Of a stretch of 11,065 nt of DNA, positions 215-9,962 are shown one piece after another (the stretch's first letter is position 1; each line of letters opens with the position of its first letter). This DNA is from Candidatus Fermentibacterota bacterium (GTDB taxonomy: Bacteria > JAFGKV01): the NCBI GenBank assembly GCA_030620115.1, contig JAUXFG010000129.1, forward strand, positions 1 through 11,065, given 5' to 3'. The translations under genes were made by a program, and so were the position numbers. The notes below the pieces were generated by a model. The model was not told the DNA's origin, searched no databases, and was given only the letters and a program-made list of their open reading frames with translations.

Positions 215-1390
215 ATGTCGGATCTACGCAGAGTTCAGAGTCTTATCCGCGCTTCTTCGGGTCCTGTGGAAACAGAGCGTGTTGCCCTTCTGGAGGCAGT
301 TGGGAGGGTGACATCGGAAGGAATTGTGGCTCCTACCCAACTCCCGCCATCTTCATTGGCGATCATGGGGGGATATGCGGTTCAGCGGGTCAGGGCCGAC
401 ATTCTCGCCCAGAATGAAGCAGCAGGCGGTGATTCATCGTCGTTTCCGAATTGCCGCGTTCCCATCTTTCCAGGAGATCCCCTCCCTGCACATACCAATG
501 CGGTGATCCCTTCTGGAACAGCCGAGGAACCAAGTATCGCCGATGATGCGCCTATGGCGCAGAGGGAGTATATAGTAGGCGCTGGAGAGATAGGAGCATC
601 AGGGGAGACATTGTTCGGCAGTGGAAGACTCCTGAGTCCCACCGACATCTCCCTCCTGGCTGATCTTGGCCTTCGTCGTGTTGGTGTCTACAAGAAACCC
701 ACGGTCGCGGTTCTCACGATAGGGGATGAGTTCTCCAAGGTTGACGATGTGCTGGGCCCTGATAAGCGATATGACAGCGCTGGAGCACTGATCAGCGGGG
801 CTGTAGTTCAGTGTGGAGGATTGCCGGTGCAACTTGGCCCGGTGACTGAGGGCCCTGAGGATCTGGAGTACGCAGTCAGGAAGGGGCTCGAGGAGAATGG
901 GCTGGTGATTGCGACGCGACGGGGGCGTGGCCGAGGTGATGGTCTGACCCACGTACTCGCGAAACAGGGCATTGAGGTAATATTCTCCCATGTTGCGTTA
1001 TGGCCGGGCGGCGAGGTTCTTTTTGGACAGATGAAGGATCACCCGGTCCTGGTCCTTCCACTTGGTGCGGGGGAGTTGCTTGTGGCTGCGGAGCTCCTTC
1101 TGGTTCCCCTCTTGTTGCGATTGGTTGGTTGGAAGCGATCCATAAGGCGTGGCGTGACTGCTCGACTGGAACGAACATTGAGGAGCCCTCGTAACGATGT
1201 GTGTGCGGCGTGGGCGGTGACCCTCATGGGTGAATCAAGCCCATACCAGGCGTGCCCAGTGCCCCAGTGGCCGGGTGGAGCCCTGTACCGATCCGCTTCA
1301 ATCTATGGGCTCTGCCTCTCTGAAGATGGGAGCGATTTGGCTGCAGGGTGTTCTGCGGAGGTGCTGCCGCTCCTTAGCAGGATTTTGTGA
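215..1390 (+). CDS. MoeA-like protein, catalytic motifs degenerate
   Basis: The 391-residue product has the length and domain order of molybdopterin molybdenumtransferase (MoeA), the enzyme that inserts molybdate into adenylylated molybdopterin. Visible family landmarks are the N-terminal VETERVALLEAVGRV (18-32), MGGYAV (51-56), the MoCF-binding core with TIGDEF (168-173) and YDSAG (186-190), and a domain IV-like C-terminus. Key motifs are altered. The DNSAMDGYA-type motif reads SSLAIMGGYA (46-55), the SSGGVSVG segment reads TRRGRGRG (234-241), KPGKP reads WPGGE (263-267), and LPGNPVS is replaced by LPLGAGEL (281-288). Loss of molybdate-insertion activity is therefore likely, leaving a binding or scaffold role (inference). 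I chose ATG 215 because the family N-terminus begins there. GGGGGAGG (205-212) lies only 2 nt upstream, which is unusually close. A TTG at 125 in the same frame would add 30 residues. It is the first gene of the apparent operon, 10 nt before the ABC ATPase. Confidence 0.75.
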   Translation: MSDLRRVQSLIRASSGPVETERVALLEAVGRVTSEGIVAPTQLPPSSLAIMGGYAVQRVRADILAQNEAAGGDSSSFPNCRVPIFPGDPLPAHTNAVIPSGTAEEPSIADDAPMAQREYIVGAGEIGASGETLFGSGRLLSPTDISLLADLGLRRVGVYKKPTVAVLTIGDEFSKVDDVLGPDKRYDSAGALISGAVVQCGGLPVQLGPVTEGPEDLEYAVRKGLEENGLVIATRRGRGRGDGLTHVLAKQGIEVIFSHVALWPGGEVLFGQMKDHPVLVLPLGAGELLVAAELLLVPLLLRLVGWKRSIRRGVTARLERTLRSPRNDVCAAWAVTLMGESSPYQACPVPQWPGGALYRSASIYGLCLSEDGSDLAAGCSAEVLPLLSRIL

Positions 1391-1400
1391 GGAATTGCTT

Positions 1401-2336
1401 ATGGCTCTTGTAGATGTGAGAGAGATATATCGGAAGTTTGAGAATATCCAGGCATTGGATGGCGTCTCGTTCACGGTGGAAGAGGGGGAGATATTTGGTC
1501 TCCTCGGGCCCAACGGCGCCGGCAAGACTACTCTGGTCCGGATCATCACCGGTGTGCTTCGACCGAATGCGGGCAGGGTCCTTATTGGTGGACGTGAAAT
1601 ATCCCCAGCCACGCGAGATGTTCGAAGGATCGTGGGTGTGGTACCTCAGCAAATCACGGTATACGAGGATCTCACCGCATGGGATAACCTCCTCTTCTGG
1701 GGCAGGCTCTACGGCCTGCGGGGTGCTGATCTGCGCTCCCGCATAGAAGAGCTGCTTGTGCTCGTTGGATTGGAAGCCAGGGCCAAGGATCGATTGGTGA
1801 CCTATTCCGGTGGTATGAAACGTCGCCTCAATCTCTGCATGGGACTGATCCACAAGCCCAAGGTCCTGATCCTGGATGAACCAACACTGGGCATCGACCC
1901 ACAAGCCAGGCTGCTTCTGCTGGATCGTGTGCGGGAGATCGCCTCCACGGGAACAGCCGTGATCTATACCACTCACTATCTCGAAGAAGCTGAGTCCATA
2001 TGCAGTAGGATTGCCATCATTGACCATGGCCGCGTGCTCACCATGGGCAGCCTGGCCGAGCTTCTTCGCCAGGTACGACACAAAGAAATCATCAAGCTCC
2101 ACGGCGCATTTGATCCTGAGCGTGACGGCGAACGGTTCCAAGCCTTCCCCGGATTCGAGATCATTTCACTTGACGATGAGAATGTGGTGCTGGAGCCCCA
2201 CGAACGGAATGGCATACCGGGGATTCTTTCTACCCTCCTTTCCGAGATTCCCCAGATCCAGGGCATCTCCGTGGAAAAACCTACACTTGAGAGCCTCTTC
2301 ATCCAGCTCACGGGGAGAGAACTGAGGGATCAGTGA
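1401..2336 (+). CDS. ABC-2 type exporter, ATP-binding subunit
   Basis: This 311-residue cytoplasmic ATPase powers the exporter formed with the two permeases that follow. All ABC motifs are intact: Walker A GPNGAGKTT (36-44), Q-loop VPQQ (81-84), signature YSGGM (135-139), Walker B VLILDE (155-160), D-loop LGID (163-166) and switch histidine TTH (H192). A C-terminal extension ends in KPTLESLFIQLTGRELRD, a layout typical of the CcmA/DrrA/NatA-like ATPases that pair with ABC-2 permeases. I chose ATG 1401 because TGAGGAA (1388-1394) sits just upstream and the conserved domain begins at once. The same frame is open further upstream, but that part overlaps the MoeA-like gene and has no family similarity. 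The stop overlaps the next start by 4 nt (GTGA). The substrate cannot be inferred. Confidence 0.95.
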   Translation: MALVDVREIYRKFENIQALDGVSFTVEEGEIFGLLGPNGAGKTTLVRIITGVLRPNAGRVLIGGREISPATRDVRRIVGVVPQQITVYEDLTAWDNLLFWGRLYGLRGADLRSRIEELLVLVGLEARAKDRLVTYSGGMKRRLNLCMGLIHKPKVLILDEPTLGIDPQARLLLLDRVREIASTGTAVIYTTHYLEEAESICSRIAIIDHGRVLTMGSLAELLRQVRHKEIIKLHGAFDPERDGERFQAFPGFEIISLDDENVVLEPHERNGIPGILSTLLSEIPQIQGISVEKPTLESLFIQLTGRELRDQ

Positions 2337-3571
2337 GCCGGATTCTCGCGGTCTCATGGCGTGATCTGAAGAGTTCCGCTATGGCTCCCACGGGAATCGT
2401 TCTCATGCTTCTTATTCCCCTTCTCTTATCGGGTATAATCGGCCTCGCATTTGGCACTGGCGATGGGGAGCAGAAGTTCCCCACGCTCAAGCTTCTGGTC
2501 TGGAACCGTGATGAAGGATTGGTGGGACGACTCTTCGCTTCCACATTGGGGCAGGAAAGCGCTTCCCAGTATGTGGACGCTGAGTTCGTGGCCGAGGAGG
2601 GCATGGAGCGGATCCGGCAGGGCAAGGCCTCAGCGCTGCTCATTCTTCCCGAAGGGCTGACCGACTCGATCCTTGCCGGCGGCACTGCGACGCTGGAGCT
2701 CATCAAGAACCCCGCCGAACAGTACATGCCGCTTATTGCGGAGAATGGTATGCGGCTTGTCGCATCGGCGCTGGATGCACTGGTTCGAATCCTGGAACCT
2801 GAGCTTGCACTCATCCGGAATGCCGATGAAGTGGATGCACACATCCCTGAACAGGAACAGATTGCGTCGATCTCGGCAGCCATGAGCGGGCGATTCTATC
2901 GCCTGGCCCAATGGTTCTCTCCATGGCCGGTGAAGCTTGAGATGCATGAGCCGGATGAGTCATCATCTGAAGGAATGAATGTATTCGGATACGTGCTCCC
3001 CGGGCTCACGGTCATGATGCTCCTGATGATCGCGCAGAAGCTCCTCCGGGAGATCTCCGAAGAGCATGAGAACGGCACTCTATCTGCTGTTCTCGCCACA
3101 CCCATCGATGTGACCGAATACGCCATGGGCAAGGCCCTCGGCCTATTGATTCTCACACTCGCGGGCTTTGCCGTGCTCTTGCCCTGTGGATCCCTTCTAT
3201 TCTCGATACACTGGGGTGAGCCCGTGGCGGTGCTCACCATGGCCATCGGGTTCTCACTGGCTGCGTCGGGCATGATGATGCTCCTTTGCGGCATCACGCG
3301 ATCGAGCCGACAAGCCGAAGCCGTAGGCATCACCGTGGTTCTCCTCATGTCTTTGGTGGGCGGCAGCATGGTTCCCTTCCGCGCAGAACATGGCGTGCTC
3401 GCTGTTCTCTCGCGGTTGACCCCCAATCGGTGGGCTATCGATGGATTCCTTGCGGTCATGCAGGGGGAGCCTGTGACTGCGATTCTTGGCGAAGCAGGGG
3501 TCTTGTTTGTGGCGGGCCTCGTGATGCTCGTGACCGGGGCGATGCTTTTCCGAAAAAGAGTCATGCAATGA
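2333..3571 (+). CDS. ABC-2 type permease, first subunit
   Basis: The 412-residue integral membrane protein has the layout of ABC2_membrane_3 family exporters. There is one N-terminal membrane helix (about 20-40), a large extracytoplasmic domain (about 41-215), and five further helices near 217-235, 268-290, 296-320, 330-347 and 387-405. The coupling-region motif EHENGTLSAVLATP (244-257) matches the E.E.GTL..LL.TP pattern of this family, and LTPNRWAIDGF (362-372) matches the conserved segment before the last helix. It starts with GTG inside the GTGA overlap with the ATPase stop, and ends in an ATGA overlap with the second permease, so all three are probably translationally coupled. With the next gene it likely forms a heterodimeric membrane channel. 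Antibiotic, lipid, polysaccharide and protein export are all possible for this family. Confidence 0.92.
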   Translation: MSRILAVSWRDLKSSAMAPTGIVLMLLIPLLLSGIIGLAFGTGDGEQKFPTLKLLVWNRDEGLVGRLFASTLGQESASQYVDAEFVAEEGMERIRQGKASALLILPEGLTDSILAGGTATLELIKNPAEQYMPLIAENGMRLVASALDALVRILEPELALIRNADEVDAHIPEQEQIASISAAMSGRFYRLAQWFSPWPVKLEMHEPDESSSEGMNVFGYVLPGLTVMMLLMIAQKLLREISEEHENGTLSAVLATPIDVTEYAMGKALGLLILTLAGFAVLLPCGSLLFSIHWGEPVAVLTMAIGFSLAASGMMMLLCGITRSSRQAEAVGITVVLLMSLVGGSMVPFRAEHGVLAVLSRLTPNRWAIDGFLAVMQGEPVTAILGEAGVLFVAGLVMLVTGAMLFRKRVMQ

Positions 3572-4767
3572 GAATCGCCCTGGAGATCGCGCGGTTCGAA
3601 GTAATGAGGGTGCTGCGGGATACGGGCGCGTTCTTCTGGATTGTGGCATTCCCTGTCATCTATGCATCGTTTTTTGGCATGATCCAGTTCACCGGATCCA
3701 GGAGTGTCTCGGTTGGTCTCTGCATTGCAGATGCTGATTCCGGCTTTTTGGCCCGTGGTCTGCAATCGAGTCTTGCGAAGTTCTCCATGGAGTTGCTCGA
3801 CAGCACGGCGCTGGCCGAATATGAACGGCGGGACGGGCTCACGATCAACGAGGTTGCGCTTTCTGATACTTTGCCTTCTGATTGCGTGCGGCTGCTTTCA
3901 ATCCCCGCAGGATTTACCGACAGTCTGCTGCACCACAATCCGGTCATTCTTCATCTGACTACGGGGGATGAAGGCGCATTCATGGCCACCATTACCACGC
4001 AGGTCATGGTGTGGCGAGCGATCCTCGAGAATATGGCGGCGCTGATAGCTGCTTCTTCAGACACAAGCGGCGGCGGACTGGAATTGCAGCTCGAAGCACA
4101 ACGAGCTCGCCCCCAAAAGGTCATAGTCAGGAGTTCATTTGCCGGTGGGGTTGAGCAGGCGCCCCAGGGGCTTTCGCAGACCGTACCCGGCACCATAGTG
4201 ATGATGGTTCTCATGATCCTGCTCACACAAGGGACGGCAACTCTGGTGCTCGAACGCAAACAGGGCCTGCTCTTGCATATCTCTGCAACACCCGCCACGC
4301 GATCCGAGATCATCTGGGGCAAGCTCTTGGGCAGATATCTGACAGGTGGTGTTCAGATCGTCATTCTCTGGATTCTCATGGTGGCGGCTCAGCACCTCTT
4401 GGGCGTGTGGATCGGCTATCGTCTCATTGAAACCGTGCCACTACTGGCCATCTATGCTCTCGCGGCGTCGGGCGTTGGTTTCTTTGTGGCAGCGCTGGTT
4501 CGCAGCATTGACACCGCGGTGGGCATCGGGATTACGGTGACGCTGGTCATGGCAGCGTTGGGCGGCTGCTGGTGGCCCTTGGAGATCGTGCCCAGGGGTA
4601 TGCAGATAGCGGGACACGCCTTCCCCACGGCCTGGGCCATGGACGCGCTCCACCAGCTCATGGCATACAATCATGGCCTCGGCAGCGTCGTGCCTCAGAT
4701 GGCCATCCTTGCGCTCTACGGCATCGTTTTCTCTGCTGCTGCCTCTCGCGTGCTCCGGCTTACGTGA
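3568..4767 (+). CDS. ABC-2 type permease, second subunit
   Basis: The 399-residue membrane protein has the same architecture as the preceding permease but diverges strongly in sequence. It has helix 1 at about 20-40, an extracytoplasmic domain at about 41-205, then helices near 206-224, 256-282, 289-310, 316-336 and 375-393. The motif ERKQGLLLHISATPATRSEI (229-248) corresponds to the E...G....L..TP element, and FPTAWAMDALHQLM (352-365) to the conserved W-A-D segment. ATG 3568 overlaps the previous stop (ATGA); the frame is open upstream but that part lies inside permease 1. Its stop lies 8 nt before the next start. Two unlike half-channels in tandem with one ATPase imply a 2:1:1 exporter (inference from family organisation). 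Confidence 0.92.
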   Translation: MRIALEIARFEVMRVLRDTGAFFWIVAFPVIYASFFGMIQFTGSRSVSVGLCIADADSGFLARGLQSSLAKFSMELLDSTALAEYERRDGLTINEVALSDTLPSDCVRLLSIPAGFTDSLLHHNPVILHLTTGDEGAFMATITTQVMVWRAILENMAALIAASSDTSGGGLELQLEAQRARPQKVIVRSSFAGGVEQAPQGLSQTVPGTIVMMVLMILLTQGTATLVLERKQGLLLHISATPATRSEIIWGKLLGRYLTGGVQIVILWILMVAAQHLLGVWIGYRLIETVPLLAIYALAASGVGFFVAALVRSIDTAVGIGITVTLVMAALGGCWWPLEIVPRGMQIAGHAFPTAWAMDALHQLMAYNHGLGSVVPQMAILALYGIVFSAAASRVLRLT

Positions 4768-4771
4768 GGAG
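4766..4771 (+). promoter_or_regulatory. Shine-Dalgarno for the two-receiver/PPDK_N gene
   Basis: GAGGAG overlaps the stop codon of permease 2 and lies 4 nt before ATG 4776. It supports that start over the open frame that extends upstream within the permease gene. Confidence 0.7.
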
Positions 4772-4775
4772 AATC

Positions 4776-7754
4776 ATGAACGAGTCACTGGAACTCAACA
4801 GCAGATACGGCATGCATACGGAGGAGTTCTCCGACCTTATGAGGCATCGAGTGGGGAGGATTCTGATGGTTGCATCACAGTACGATGCCTTTGCGCTTGA
4901 AGAGGACGGGCAGCTATCCGAGCAGTTGTTCCGTGAGTACCGCAATCTGGATCTCAACCCGCGATACACGCCCCGGTTCACCCATGTTGGGAGCGCCAAG
5001 GCTGCGCTCGAACGTCTCGCTGAACGGGAATTCGATCTCATAATCACCACCCCCAGGATTGGCGACATGGACGTGGAGACGTTCGGGAAGATTGTGAAGA
5101 GCAAGTTCGAGCATATCCCGCTTACCGTGTTGGCCGCTCACGCATGGGATCTCCCCCGTTTGGCCGATTTCAGAAAGCGCGGAGTGGCTGACTGGGTATT
5201 CCTCTGGCAAGGTGACGCGGCAGTCTTGCTCGCCATACTCAAGCAGGTGGAAGACAGGGCGAATGTCGACGCAGATGTGCGCCAGGGCATTCAGGTGATC
5301 ATTCTCGTCGAGGATGGCATAAGGTTTTTCTCGTCCTATCTGCCGCAGATATACACCGAGATCACGCTTCAAACAGGGCGGCTGGTTGCTGAGAGCCTCA
5401 ACATCTCGCACCGCTTGCTTCGAATTCGGGCACGGCCCAAGATTCTCCTGGCACAAACATTCGAAGAGGCCTGGGAGCTGTACGAGCACTTCAAGCAGAA
5501 TATCCTTGGCGTCATCTCCGATGTTCGATTCTCCTTGGATGGCAAGGAGGATCCTGAAGCAGGGCTCAACCTGCTCAAGAGGATCCGTGAACAGGATGCG
5601 GATCTCCCCATACTCATGCAGTCGAGTGAGCTGAAGAATAGGCAGCTCGCCCATGATGCCGGTGCTTCGTTCATCTGGAAGAATTCCCCGCACCTTCTCG
5701 AGGACATTCGGGATTACATCCTCAACTATTTCGGGTTTGGTGATTTTGTATTTCGAATGCCGGATGGCAAGGAAGTGGGTCGGGCCAAGACCATGAAGGA
5801 AATGGTCGACATTCTGGAACGGGCGCCAAGCGAATCCATCGAGTACCATGCACAGAGAAATCACTTCTCCATGTGGTTGAAAGCTCGGTCTGAGTTCGAG
5901 CTCGCCGCGCTTCTCAAGCCCCGGCGGGTAACTGAATTCTCCTCCATCGATGAGATCCGTAGTCATTTGAGATCCAGTATTGCCAGCTATCTCCGTGAAG
6001 TGCAGCGCCATGTGATTACTGACTTCGATGAAGAGACATATGATGGCAATGTTTCGTTTGCGAAGGTAGGGGAGGGTTCGCTAGGAGGAAAAGGACGTGG
6101 GTTGGCTTTCATGCACAAGCTGCTCTCCCAGGAGAGAATCCAGCTACCAGGTGTGGAAGTATCCATACCGGAAACCACCGTCCTGGCCAGCGATGTGTTC
6201 GAAGAGTTCCTGGAAGACAATGAACTCTTGCCCATTGTCCTTGGATCGGAACCGAGAAGCGACGCCGACATACTCAATGCCTTTCGGCGGGGCAGGTTCA
6301 ACCACCGTCGTCGTGGCCAGTTGGCGACTATCCTCACGCATGCTCAGGGTCCCTTCGCGGTGAGATCTTCCAGCATCCTAGAGGATTCGCTCTATCAACC
6401 ATTTGCCGGCGTATATGCGACGGTGATGTTGCCGAACAGCCATGCAAGCCTGGACGTTCGCCTGGCGCAGCTGCTGGAAGCGGTCAAGGTTGTGTATGCG
6501 TCGACCTATTTGCGCGCTGCGCGGGAGTACTTGGATACCACGCCGCACAGGATTGAAGAAGAGAGAATGGCGGTACTCATCCAGAGATTGGTGGGCAGTG
6601 CCCGTGGCGGTTGGTTCTACCCCACGATTGCGGGCGTGGCTTCATCATGGAATTTCTATCCCGCCAAAGGTGTTCGTCCTGACGAAGGAGTCGTGCAGAT
6701 TGCGCTTGGTCTCGGGAAGACCGTGGTGGATGGGTATGATGCCCTGAGATTTTGCCCCGCTCATCCGGAGATTCTCCCTCAGTTCTCGTCGACCAAGGAC
6801 ATGCTGCGCAATGCACAGCGTCGATTCTACGGCCTGGATATGAGCCAGGAGAGCGTCATCCCAGGGCTTGACTATGACGCCAATCTTTTACAGCTCGATG
6901 TGTCTGAAGCGGTGAAAGATGGGGCGGTAGACCAGATAGGTTCGACGTATGTTCCTGATAGCGATCGTGTGGTTGGCGGCATCATCAAGGGCGGCACGCC
7001 TCTGGTGACCTTTGCAGGTCTTCTCCAAGGCTACGTGCTCCCGTTGCCCGAAGTGCTGCAGCGTCTTCTCCGGATTTGCCAGGATGGCTTCGGCATGCCG
7101 GTGGAGATCGAATTCGCCATGAATCTCGAGCCCGGGTCCGGGCATAGGCAGGTCTTCAACGTGCTCCAGGTCCGCCCGCTGGTGGTGGAGAAGATGGAGA
7201 CAATCGTGGATCTGGAGAGCCTTGCTGGCAGCGCCATACCTGTGGTGGTCTCGGAACGCGCCCTTGGGCATGGACGGGTACTCGAGACCCGCGACCTGGT
7301 GGTTGTTGATCCCCGGAGACTCGACCGGTCATTGACGGGAAAGGTGGCTGAGCAGATCGAGAAGTTGAACGCACAGATCCGCTCTGAAGGGAGATCGTAT
7401 ATTCTGCTGGGCCCAGGCAGGTGGGGATCAAATGATTCGTGGTTGGGCATCCCGGTGGTCTGGCATCAGATATCATCCGCAGGGGCCATTATTGAGACTG
7501 ATTTCAAAGATTTCGAGGTTGAACCCTCTCAGGGCTCCCATTTCTTCCACAATATCACCACGTTCGGCGTCGCGTATCTCACCGTTCATGAATCCAGGGA
7601 ACCCGGGGCCATCAAGTGGGAATTCATAGACGCATTGCCTCGGCATGGGGAGTACCTCGACGGGGTAGTCCTCCATATTCGTCTCGACCAGCCTTTGAAG
7701 GTTTTTGTGGATGGCCATTCAGGCAAGGGTATCGTCATCGCCGATGCGGGTTAG
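4776..7754 (+). CDS. Two-receiver protein with PEP-synthase-like ATP-grasp domain
   Basis: The 992-residue cytoplasmic protein has four visible parts. Residues 27-160 are receiver-like, but the phosphoacceptor position holds Thr92 (LIITTPRIGDMD) and no beta-5 lysine is seen, so it is a pseudo-receiver. Residues 172-320 form a second receiver with acidic pair E179/D180, phosphoacceptor D249 (ISDVRF), S283 and K302 (FIWKNSP), and an unusually long stretch between the acidic pair and D249. Residues about 425-805 match the PEP synthase/PPDK N-terminal ATP-binding domain: GSLGGKGRGLAFM (434-446), FAVRSSSILEDS (527-538), FAGVYAT (543-549), LGLGKTVVDG (644-653), EIEF (777-780) and VLQVRP (796-801). 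The usual phosphohistidine swivelling domain (GG.TSHAAI) and the PEP/pyruvate TIM barrel are absent. Instead, residues 820-992 carry GPGRWGSNDSWLGIPV (879-894) and SQGSHFFHN (918-926). Similar proteins are annotated PEP/pyruvate-binding or PEP synthase, but true PEP synthesis is doubtful. A phosphorylation-controlled, ATP-dependent role is inferred. It is the last gene of the operon. Confidence 0.88.
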   Translation: MNESLELNSRYGMHTEEFSDLMRHRVGRILMVASQYDAFALEEDGQLSEQLFREYRNLDLNPRYTPRFTHVGSAKAALERLAEREFDLIITTPRIGDMDVETFGKIVKSKFEHIPLTVLAAHAWDLPRLADFRKRGVADWVFLWQGDAAVLLAILKQVEDRANVDADVRQGIQVIILVEDGIRFFSSYLPQIYTEITLQTGRLVAESLNISHRLLRIRARPKILLAQTFEEAWELYEHFKQNILGVISDVRFSLDGKEDPEAGLNLLKRIREQDADLPILMQSSELKNRQLAHDAGASFIWKNSPHLLEDIRDYILNYFGFGDFVFRMPDGKEVGRAKTMKEMVDILERAPSESIEYHAQRNHFSMWLKARSEFELAALLKPRRVTEFSSIDEIRSHLRSSIASYLREVQRHVITDFDEETYDGNVSFAKVGEGSLGGKGRGLAFMHKLLSQERIQLPGVEVSIPETTVLASDVFEEFLEDNELLPIVLGSEPRSDADILNAFRRGRFNHRRRGQLATILTHAQGPFAVRSSSILEDSLYQPFAGVYATVMLPNSHASLDVRLAQLLEAVKVVYASTYLRAAREYLDTTPHRIEEERMAVLIQRLVGSARGGWFYPTIAGVASSWNFYPAKGVRPDEGVVQIALGLGKTVVDGYDALRFCPAHPEILPQFSSTKDMLRNAQRRFYGLDMSQESVIPGLDYDANLLQLDVSEAVKDGAVDQIGSTYVPDSDRVVGGIIKGGTPLVTFAGLLQGYVLPLPEVLQRLLRICQDGFGMPVEIEFAMNLEPGSGHRQVFNVLQVRPLVVEKMETIVDLESLAGSAIPVVVSERALGHGRVLETRDLVVVDPRRLDRSLTGKVAEQIEKLNAQIRSEGRSYILLGPGRWGSNDSWLGIPVVWHQISSAGAIIETDFKDFEVEPSQGSHFFHNITTFGVAYLTVHESREPGAIKWEFIDALPRHGEYLDGVVLHIRLDQPLKVFVDGHSGKGIVIADAG

Positions 7755-7762
7755 ATCGCGTT

Positions 7763-8650
7763 CTATAAGAGACCGCGGGGGCCAAGGACATAGATAACCA
7801 CGGCTGACGAAAGGGCCCATAAAGCCACTGCAATAAGCAAAGGCTTGTCTTCCACGAGGAGGCGATCCGGGCTATCACCGAGATCGTGTCTGTGCACGAG
7901 ATATAGGTATCGGAATATGCCGTAGATGACAAATGGAATGGTCATGGAAAGCCCACGCGTGTGGAATTTCGCCACTGTCTCCGGGCTCAGAGTATACAGA
8001 GCATAGGTCACCACAGTTGATGATGTCACCACTGAGATCATCTGGTCCAGCATGTGGGGCGTGTACTCCCGAAGGATCTTCCGGTGCCCCCCGGCCGCCT
8101 CATCCAATATGACCAACTCGCTCCTGCGTTTGCTCAGGCCGAGAAAAAGAGAAAGCTGAATCGTGCATACGAGCAGCCACGATGACATCTCCACATCGAT
8201 TACTATGGCGCCGGCCGCGGCCCTAAGCACGAATCCCGCTGCGATGGCGAATACATCAAGAATCACTAGGTGCTTGAGCCATGTGCTGTAGGCAAGCATG
8301 AGCACGACGTAGGCGACGGCCGTCAGGGCGAAGGTTGTGCCGAGGAGCGCTGCACAGAAAAGACCCACGGCGCCCAACAGAACGGCGCCTATCACGGCAG
8401 CTTTTGCGGAGAGTTCGCCGGCGGCAATGGGCCTTCTGCATTTTGTGGGGTGCTTACGATCGGCTTCCTTATCAAGCAGATCATTAACCACATAGACTAC
8501 GCCGCTTATGGCCGAGTAGATGAGGAATGCGGCCGTGGCGCGAAGAATATCAGGCGTATGGAATGCCCTTTGCGCAAAGGCGACGCCGGCAAACACCAGC
8601 AGATTCTTTGTCCATTGTCGTGGACGCAGTGAAATGACAAAAGATTTCAT
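7763..8650 (-). CDS. UbiA-family prenyltransferase, probable decaprenyl-phosphate phosphoribosyltransferase
   Basis: The 295-residue polytopic membrane enzyme belongs to the UbiA superfamily. The first aspartate-rich motif is N56-D57-L-L-D60-K-E-A-D64, followed by RKHPTKCRRPIAAG (65-78), a signature of decaprenyl-phosphate phosphoribosyltransferase (DPPR synthase). In actinobacteria that enzyme attaches phosphoribosyl to polyprenyl phosphate on the way to decaprenyl-phospho-arabinose. The second conserved block, YSTWLKHLVILDVFAIAAGF (121-140), then VLRAAAGA, and KRRSEL (174-179) fit as well. About eight or nine hydrophobic helices are visible. In non-actinobacterial genomes such homologues have uncertain donors and acceptors, and no arabinosyl-pathway partners (DprE1/DprE2) are in view. 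It converges on the two-receiver/PPDK_N gene, with 8 nt between the stops. A weak AAGCGGG lies upstream of the ATG. Confidence 0.88.
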   Translation of the reverse strand: MKSFVISLRPRQWTKNLLVFAGVAFAQRAFHTPDILRATAAFLIYSAISGVVYVVNDLLDKEADRKHPTKCRRPIAAGELSAKAAVIGAVLLGAVGLFCAALLGTTFALTAVAYVVLMLAYSTWLKHLVILDVFAIAAGFVLRAAAGAIVIDVEMSSWLLVCTIQLSLFLGLSKRRSELVILDEAAGGHRKILREYTPHMLDQMISVVTSSTVVTYALYTLSPETVAKFHTRGLSMTIPFVIYGIFRYLYLVHRHDLGDSPDRLLVEDKPLLIAVALWALSSAVVIYVLGPRGLL

Positions 8651-9227: not shown

Positions 9228-9962
9228 ATGGAGAGGTCGCCGAAAGCTCAGGCGCTTCATGACCAGGGTTTGGCGTCATATCGGGCGCAACGGTATGAAG
9301 AAGCTCTCGAGCTTTTTTCCGGGGCACTTCAGGAGAGTCCGACGGATGCCTTGGTGAACTACAGGGTCGGCACAACCCTGTTTCGGCTGGAGCGGCATGA
9401 AGAAGCGGAGCGTTACTTCGAACGGGCCATTGAGGCAAATCCGAATCACACCAATGCGTTGATGAATCTTGGACTGCTCTATGATATCACCGGCAGGAAG
9501 GAACAGGGAGTTCGAATGCTCAAGGCGGCTGCCGAGAGCGACTCCACCAATCCGCAGATCCAGTTCAATCTTGGCGCTCTGTATGGTGACCAAGGTCATT
9601 ACGACATGGCGGTGCATCATTTCGCGAAAGCATTGGAGCTCGACCCCCGGAGCCTTGAGGCTTCATTCAACTTGGGTCTTGCCTACAGCAAGATGGGCCT
9701 GTACAAGAAGGCGATCGAGGCGTTCCGCAACACGCTTCGGTTGGATTCGAGGCATGTGGATGCGTTGTTTGCCCTTGGTACCGCATATCGTCAGTGCCAG
9801 ATGTCCGAGCGGGCCATGGAAACATATCAGAGGATCACCGATATCGATCATGGGGCGACGCGGGCCTATTTCTGGCTTGGTGTGCTTTATGATAAGAAGG
9901 GTATGAAGGAAGAGGCCCGGACGATGTATCGTCGCGTCCGAGAAGAGGAGAACCGTTCTTAG
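9228..9962 (+). CDS. TPR-repeat protein
   Basis: The 244-residue protein consists almost entirely of seven consecutive tetratricopeptide repeats, at about residues 6-39, 41-73, 75-107, 109-141, 143-175, 177-209 and 211-242. Each keeps the W/L-G-Y-A-F-A-P type spacing, for example NLGLAYSKMGLYKKAIEAF (148-166). Such superhelices bind partner proteins or peptides and have no catalytic activity. There is no signal peptide or membrane segment, so the product is probably cytoplasmic. ATG 9228 is supported by AAGGAG 9 nt upstream. The gene stands apart from its neighbours: the upstream gene is divergent and 577 nt away, and the downstream gene starts 239 nt later. Its partner cannot be inferred from this window. 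Confidence 0.9.
   Translation: MERSPKAQALHDQGLASYRAQRYEEALELFSGALQESPTDALVNYRVGTTLFRLERHEEAERYFERAIEANPNHTNALMNLGLLYDITGRKEQGVRMLKAAAESDSTNPQIQFNLGALYGDQGHYDMAVHHFAKALELDPRSLEASFNLGLAYSKMGLYKKAIEAFRNTLRLDSRHVDALFALGTAYRQCQMSERAMETYQRITDIDHGATRAYFWLGVLYDKKGMKEEARTMYRRVREEENRS

Follow-up and report, generated by a model that had tools for sequence, protein, structure and literature searches.

Proteins of the MoeA fold have been described in roles other than their metabolic one, and those working at membranes are the closest precedents for the locus considered here. Glp of Corynebacteriales is a repurposed MoeA that binds the membrane receptor GlpR, whose gene lies close to its own, and a parallel MoeA-fold partner of a membrane protein is gephyrin, which acts at the glycine receptor (PMC10522489). 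Whether this repurposing of MoeA at membranes was inherited or arose independently is a question raised by the authors of the Glp study (PMC10522489). For the insertase itself Asp228 of E. coli MoeA has been named as catalytically relevant (PMC9458074). On the side of transport, the nearest known systems are type V (ABC-2) exporters such as DrrAB, NodIJ and those resembling YbhFSR. In the literature nothing relevant was found on operons combining MoeA with ABC genes.

The window, i.e. the whole stretch of DNA analysed, is an entire contig of 11,065 bases belonging to a genome of 4.1 Mb (G000; 296 contigs, estimated completeness ~98%), and the region 5' of its first gene, A, lies outside this contig. 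It was compared with two genomes of a sister genus (G001 and G002) and with a wider survey of 386 genomes. Genes A–E are all encoded on one strand with junctions of +10, −4, −4 and +8; the five reading frames, their families and these distances, as given in the preliminary description, were recovered by ORF calls and Pfam/NCBIfam searches. Neither a tRNA nor an Rfam family was detected within the window. Its features are the following.

215–1390, plus strand: A, MoeA-fold protein of 391 aa (Pfam/NCBIfam and PDB matches, motif comparison, orthologues in G001 and G002).
1401–2336, plus strand: B, ATPase of an ABC-2 exporter, DrrA/NodI-like (ABC_tran 1e-34; 67% identical in G001 and G002).
2333–3571, plus strand: C, ABC-2 permease 1 (ABC2_membrane_3 2e-33; 51% identical in G001).
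3568–4767, plus strand: D, ABC-2 permease 2 (ABC2_membrane_3 1e-27; 56% identical in G001).
4765–4778, plus strand: D/E junction TGAGGAGAATCATG, with the D stop inside an SD-like GAGGAG preceding the E ATG, in G000 only.
4776–7754, plus strand: E, 992 aa, consisting of a pseudo-receiver, a receiver, PPDK_N and a conserved C-terminal domain (PPDK_N 4e-34, Response_reg 2e-6).
4851–5225 (approximate), plus strand: receiver-like domain 1 of E, a pseudo-receiver with a residue other than Asp at the phospho-Asp position (FleR/response-regulator matches).
5289–5711 (approximate), plus strand: receiver domain 2 of E (Pfam Response_reg, slightly below the curated cut-off; family alignment).
6078–7199, plus strand: PPDK_N ATP-grasp domain of E, retaining GGK, VRSS and QxRP-type motifs.
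7200–7751, plus strand: unnamed C-terminal domain of E, GPGRWGS ... SxGSHFF with invariant His922, without a Pfam match.
7763–8650, minus strand: F, UbiA-family decaprenyl-phosphate phosphoribosyltransferase-like protein, member of an E-F-G block and not of A–D.
9228–9962, plus strand: G, TPR protein, member of the conserved E-F-G block.

Protein A shares with the MoeA insertase the MoeA_N (8e-21) and MoCF_biosynth (4e-7) domains, both above the Pfam cut-offs, as well as matches to solved MoeA and gephyrin structures in the PDB and an architecture in which domains I–III are recognised and followed by a domain-IV-like C-terminus. It differs from the insertase in that its best score against a MoeA equivalog of NCBIfam is 141 bits at cut-offs of 440–534, and in the loss of 26 of the 58 columns conserved in eight canonical MoeAs from other genomes. 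If motifs are named according to what we take to be family usage (DGYA, TGAP, SGG, PGNP and GDE; position 228 excepted), the Asp of DGYA, the Thr of TGAP, both Gly of SGG and the Gly and Pro of PGNP are absent from all three orthologues of A. The Asp of the third motif, residue 242 of A and equivalent to D228 of E. coli, is invariant in the three, and the Glu of GDE is retained in two. Judged by these residues, a large part of the site for molybdenum insertion is gone from A. In the tree, A-type proteins form a clade with support of 100/100 on a stem of 1.9 changes; a few comparison ORFs there were in the wrong frame or on very long branches, and the nearest neighbour of A in this tree was not used. 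AlphaFold models of A, with pLDDT of 34 for the protein alone and 38 together with two orthologues, were discarded.

Among the 386 genomes, A-type proteins are confined to the family of the window: a scan with the A alignment matched only two sister-genus loci, and the next-best matches were canonical MoeAs not located beside this ABC triad. Proteins of G100 and G366 were A-like by score and were rejected, as they keep a canonical DGFA motif and have no adjacent triad of this ABC type.

In G001 genes A-B-C-D stand together on contig C91 (L067 4290-8852) with identities to the window proteins of 41, 67, 51 and 56%, respectively, while G002 has A-B-C on a short contig (L008) that ends inside C, leaving D off the contig. 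The A orthologues of these two genomes are 41–43% identical to A of the window. Both genera of the family thus have this neighbourhood, with A located before B in each of the three genomes, and the linkage between A and B rests on two lineages. The stop of A and the start of B overlap as ATGA in G001 and G002, and in G000 they are separated by a 10-base gap with a ribosome-binding site across the A stop; C and D are joined through GTGA and ATGA/TTGA overlaps. In a rough dN/dS comparison of G001 with G002 (dS >1), A gives 0.17, B 0.16 and the available part of C 0.19. By these values A is maintained and not decaying, with purifying selection acting on it as on B and C. Beyond D, G000 and G001 no longer have the same sequence. 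By gene order and codon overlaps A-B-C-D is a conserved four-gene unit, and its MoeA-like member is likely to be a repurposed MoeA.

The transport part of this unit combines an ABC ATPase with two ABC-2 permeases in one operon, as is typical for type V exporters. C and D are distinct proteins, their orthologues being 22–24% identical across the pair, so that a heteromeric exporter, as proposed in the preliminary description, is the expected arrangement. Like DrrAB, NodIJ and YbhFSR-like systems it has an ATPase with a DrrA-type C-terminus and two permeases with ABC2_membrane_3, but it differs from them in having an additional MoeA-derived gene and no gene for a membrane-fusion protein, and its proteins score under every NCBIfam curated cut-off shown. 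This ABC type is present in 23 of the 386 genomes, and in 12 other families none of 18 loci has a MoeA-family ORF beside the triad, several of these loci being clipped by contig ends.

A is the sole MoeA homologue detected in each of G000, G001 and G002, and searches for MoaA, MoaC and MoaE gave no match in these genomes, the same searches being positive in 11 of 14 control genomes each. A complete lack of molybdenum use in these organisms, which the missing Moa genes might suggest, was rejected, because each genome has 3–4 genes for Mo hydroxylases with a xanthine dehydrogenase-type molybdopterin-binding domain (for example L200 1783-4059, L202 2752-5580 and L203 1911-4187). G001 and G002 also have a selenocysteine formate-dehydrogenase-like gene, and both sets of genes imply that the cofactor is needed. 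One of the Mo hydroxylase genes is adjoined by a MobA-like NTP_transf_3 gene. Besides, contig C200 of G000 (L113) encodes a large fused protein in which NAD(P)-binding and ferredoxin parts are combined with a molybdopterin-oxidoreductase-like one; the Cys/Sec ligand seen in the formate dehydrogenase of G002 is apparently missing from it.

The environment of E is different. In G001 E, F and G lie on contig C188 (identities of 62, 68 and 63%); there, E and F are separated by an additional aminotransferase gene that the window lacks. In G002 E-F-G are on a different contig from A-B-C. Since this block stands apart from A–D in the sister genus, the conserved neighbours of E are F (UbiA) and G (TPR), which the preliminary description did not include and whose synteny with E holds throughout the three genomes, and A–D is a separate unit. 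The E homologue of G002 (L068 7557-10608) is split into two overlapping frames, either by a sequencing error or because the gene is broken. E-type proteins were registered in 45 of the 386 genomes, some of which have only a short paralogue; among genomes possessing both E and this ABC type, the two share a contig in G000 only. E homologues of other families are not beside MoeA or this ABC type. The neighbours of the seven distant homologues compared vary: in G055 it is a kinase gene, in G027 and G032 another PPDK_N protein, and in G053 and G056 a nearby gene is what we take, from reading the sequence, to be NADP-glutamate dehydrogenase-like. Such dehydrogenase-like genes (L072 11769-13112, L075 3564-7348) belong to two unrelated families. 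By this distribution E is a member of a widespread family and not a part of the A–D cassette.

The preliminary description had united all five genes into one system, with control of the exporter by E as a plausible model, and proposed to look for the five families as neighbours in other genomes. Such co-occurrence was observed for A with the ABC genes, in both genera and with overlapping stops and starts; E of the sister genus is elsewhere, and no E–ABC pairing on one contig was found outside G000. Scatter independent of the ABC genes, which had been named as evidence against the proposal, is therefore a property of E and not of A, and a five-gene system is unlikely. One can still imagine that the five genes form a real system in the G000 lineage, where phosphorylated receiver 2 switches the ATP-grasp activity and in this way controls the exporter. 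The operon-like clean junction with the D stop inside the ribosome-binding site of E, the intact receiver 2 and the presence of an E-type protein in 9–10 of the 23 genomes encoding such an exporter are in line with it, though shared ancestry may account for the latter. Separation of E from the exporter genes in both sister genomes and in all other genomes with both makes it very improbable, as does G055, where E is overlapped by a kinase gene instead. An artificial junction, i.e. an assembly chimera of two contigs, is just as hard to accept: the contig is short, the assembly contains 296 of them, G001 lacks the junction, and in G002, whose contig ends before D, it is not seen, but the join falls precisely between intact genes with a ribosome-binding site over the D stop, which is improbable for a random chimera. 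The best reading of the D–E adjacency is thus that it is lineage-specific: the E-UbiA-TPR block would have come to lie directly behind the A–D operon in G000, where, judging from the junction, E is probably co-transcribed with A–D, and its position after D does not by itself show control of the exporter. In this way a four-gene unit is separated from a chance neighbour that could otherwise be read as part of a five-part machine.

For the remaining four genes we give an even chance to a family-specific exporter cassette A-B-C-D, with A as a repurposed MoeA acting as a scaffold or regulator on the exporter, and E outside the cassette. B, C and D would hydrolyse ATP and export a substrate; A, whose synthesis is coupled to that of B, would bind the exporter from the cytoplasm and, once bound, organise or gate it. 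This binding and the regulatory role are suggested by analogy with Glp/GlpR and gephyrin at the glycine receptor, which likewise have a repurposed MoeA fold of full architecture and a membrane partner, in the case of GlpR encoded nearby. Unlike in these systems, the would-be partner of A is a three-gene ABC exporter and A itself has lost part of the MoeA motifs. The NCBIfam Glp model gave 139 bits for A at a cut-off of 475, glpR is not a neighbour, its place being taken by ABC genes, and no relation of A to cell division was seen, so that A may be regarded as an analogue of Glp and not as a member of its group. A difficulty for a scaffold or regulator is that genomes needing the cofactor have no MoeA homologue besides A, which has kept the catalytic Asp. 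The same facts, together with the mostly retained Glu, the MobA-like gene and the 3–4 Mo hydroxylases without MoaA, MoaC and MoaE, speak for another possibility, namely that A still handles the Mo cofactor, be it by binding, carrying or salvaging it or by insertion of Mo into a pterin taken up from outside, and that a cofactor-related compound is moved, or its toxicity relieved, by the ABC unit. With the DGYA Asp, TGAP Thr, SGG loop and PGNP gone in all orthologues, and a triad that is of exporter class and common without a MoeA neighbour, we find this unlikely. To a similarly low degree one may assume that A only shares a transcript with the exporter genes and does something unrelated in the cytoplasm; the cassette is known in just two genera and such triads occur elsewhere without A, but A and B show translational coupling in 3/3 genomes even though the DNA beyond D differs between G000 and G001. 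Tentatively and with less than even probability, A could represent a further repurposing of the MoeA fold, separate from gephyrin and Glp: a non-insertase that now serves an ABC-2 exporter as its own cytoplasmic subunit, in hosts that have Mo hydroxylases but no recognisable pathway for making the cofactor. If true, an exporter-tied MoeA relative in an unrelated family, with most of the insertase motifs gone, would add another case to the question of inherited versus independent origin.

As to E itself, its resemblance to PEP synthase and PPDK is limited to PPDK_N, which retains the nucleotide-binding motifs. In contrast to these enzymes, Pfam, which matched PPDK_N and Response_reg, found neither the His swivel (phosphohistidine) domain nor the PEP/pyruvate domain, and E has its receivers ahead of PPDK_N and a conserved domain without a name after it. 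Two receivers had been supposed for E. The second has the acidic pair, phospho-Asp, Ser/Thr and Lys expected of a response regulator (E179-D180, D249, S283 and K302, which are invariant or nearly so across an alignment of nine homologues). In none of these nine does the first have Asp at the phospho-acceptor position, and it should be called a pseudo-receiver. A candidate partner for the intact receiver is the GAF-HisKA-HATPase kinase of G055, whose gene overlaps the end of the E homologue by 4 nt (L071 11233-13500). Nothing relevant on this combination of domains was found in the literature, and by its domain composition E belongs with other signalling-like ATP-grasp proteins that form an uncharacterised group. 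GRWG and SxGSHFF of its C-terminal domain are invariant, and a similar motif ends two other PPDK_N proteins of G000. On contig C237 of that genome (L118 5906-10958) a 602-aa PPDK_N protein is encoded beside one of 1085 aa with PPDK_N and a C-terminal NTP_transf_2; this pair is also present in G001, and both members carry the SxGS/THFF C-terminal motif as E does.
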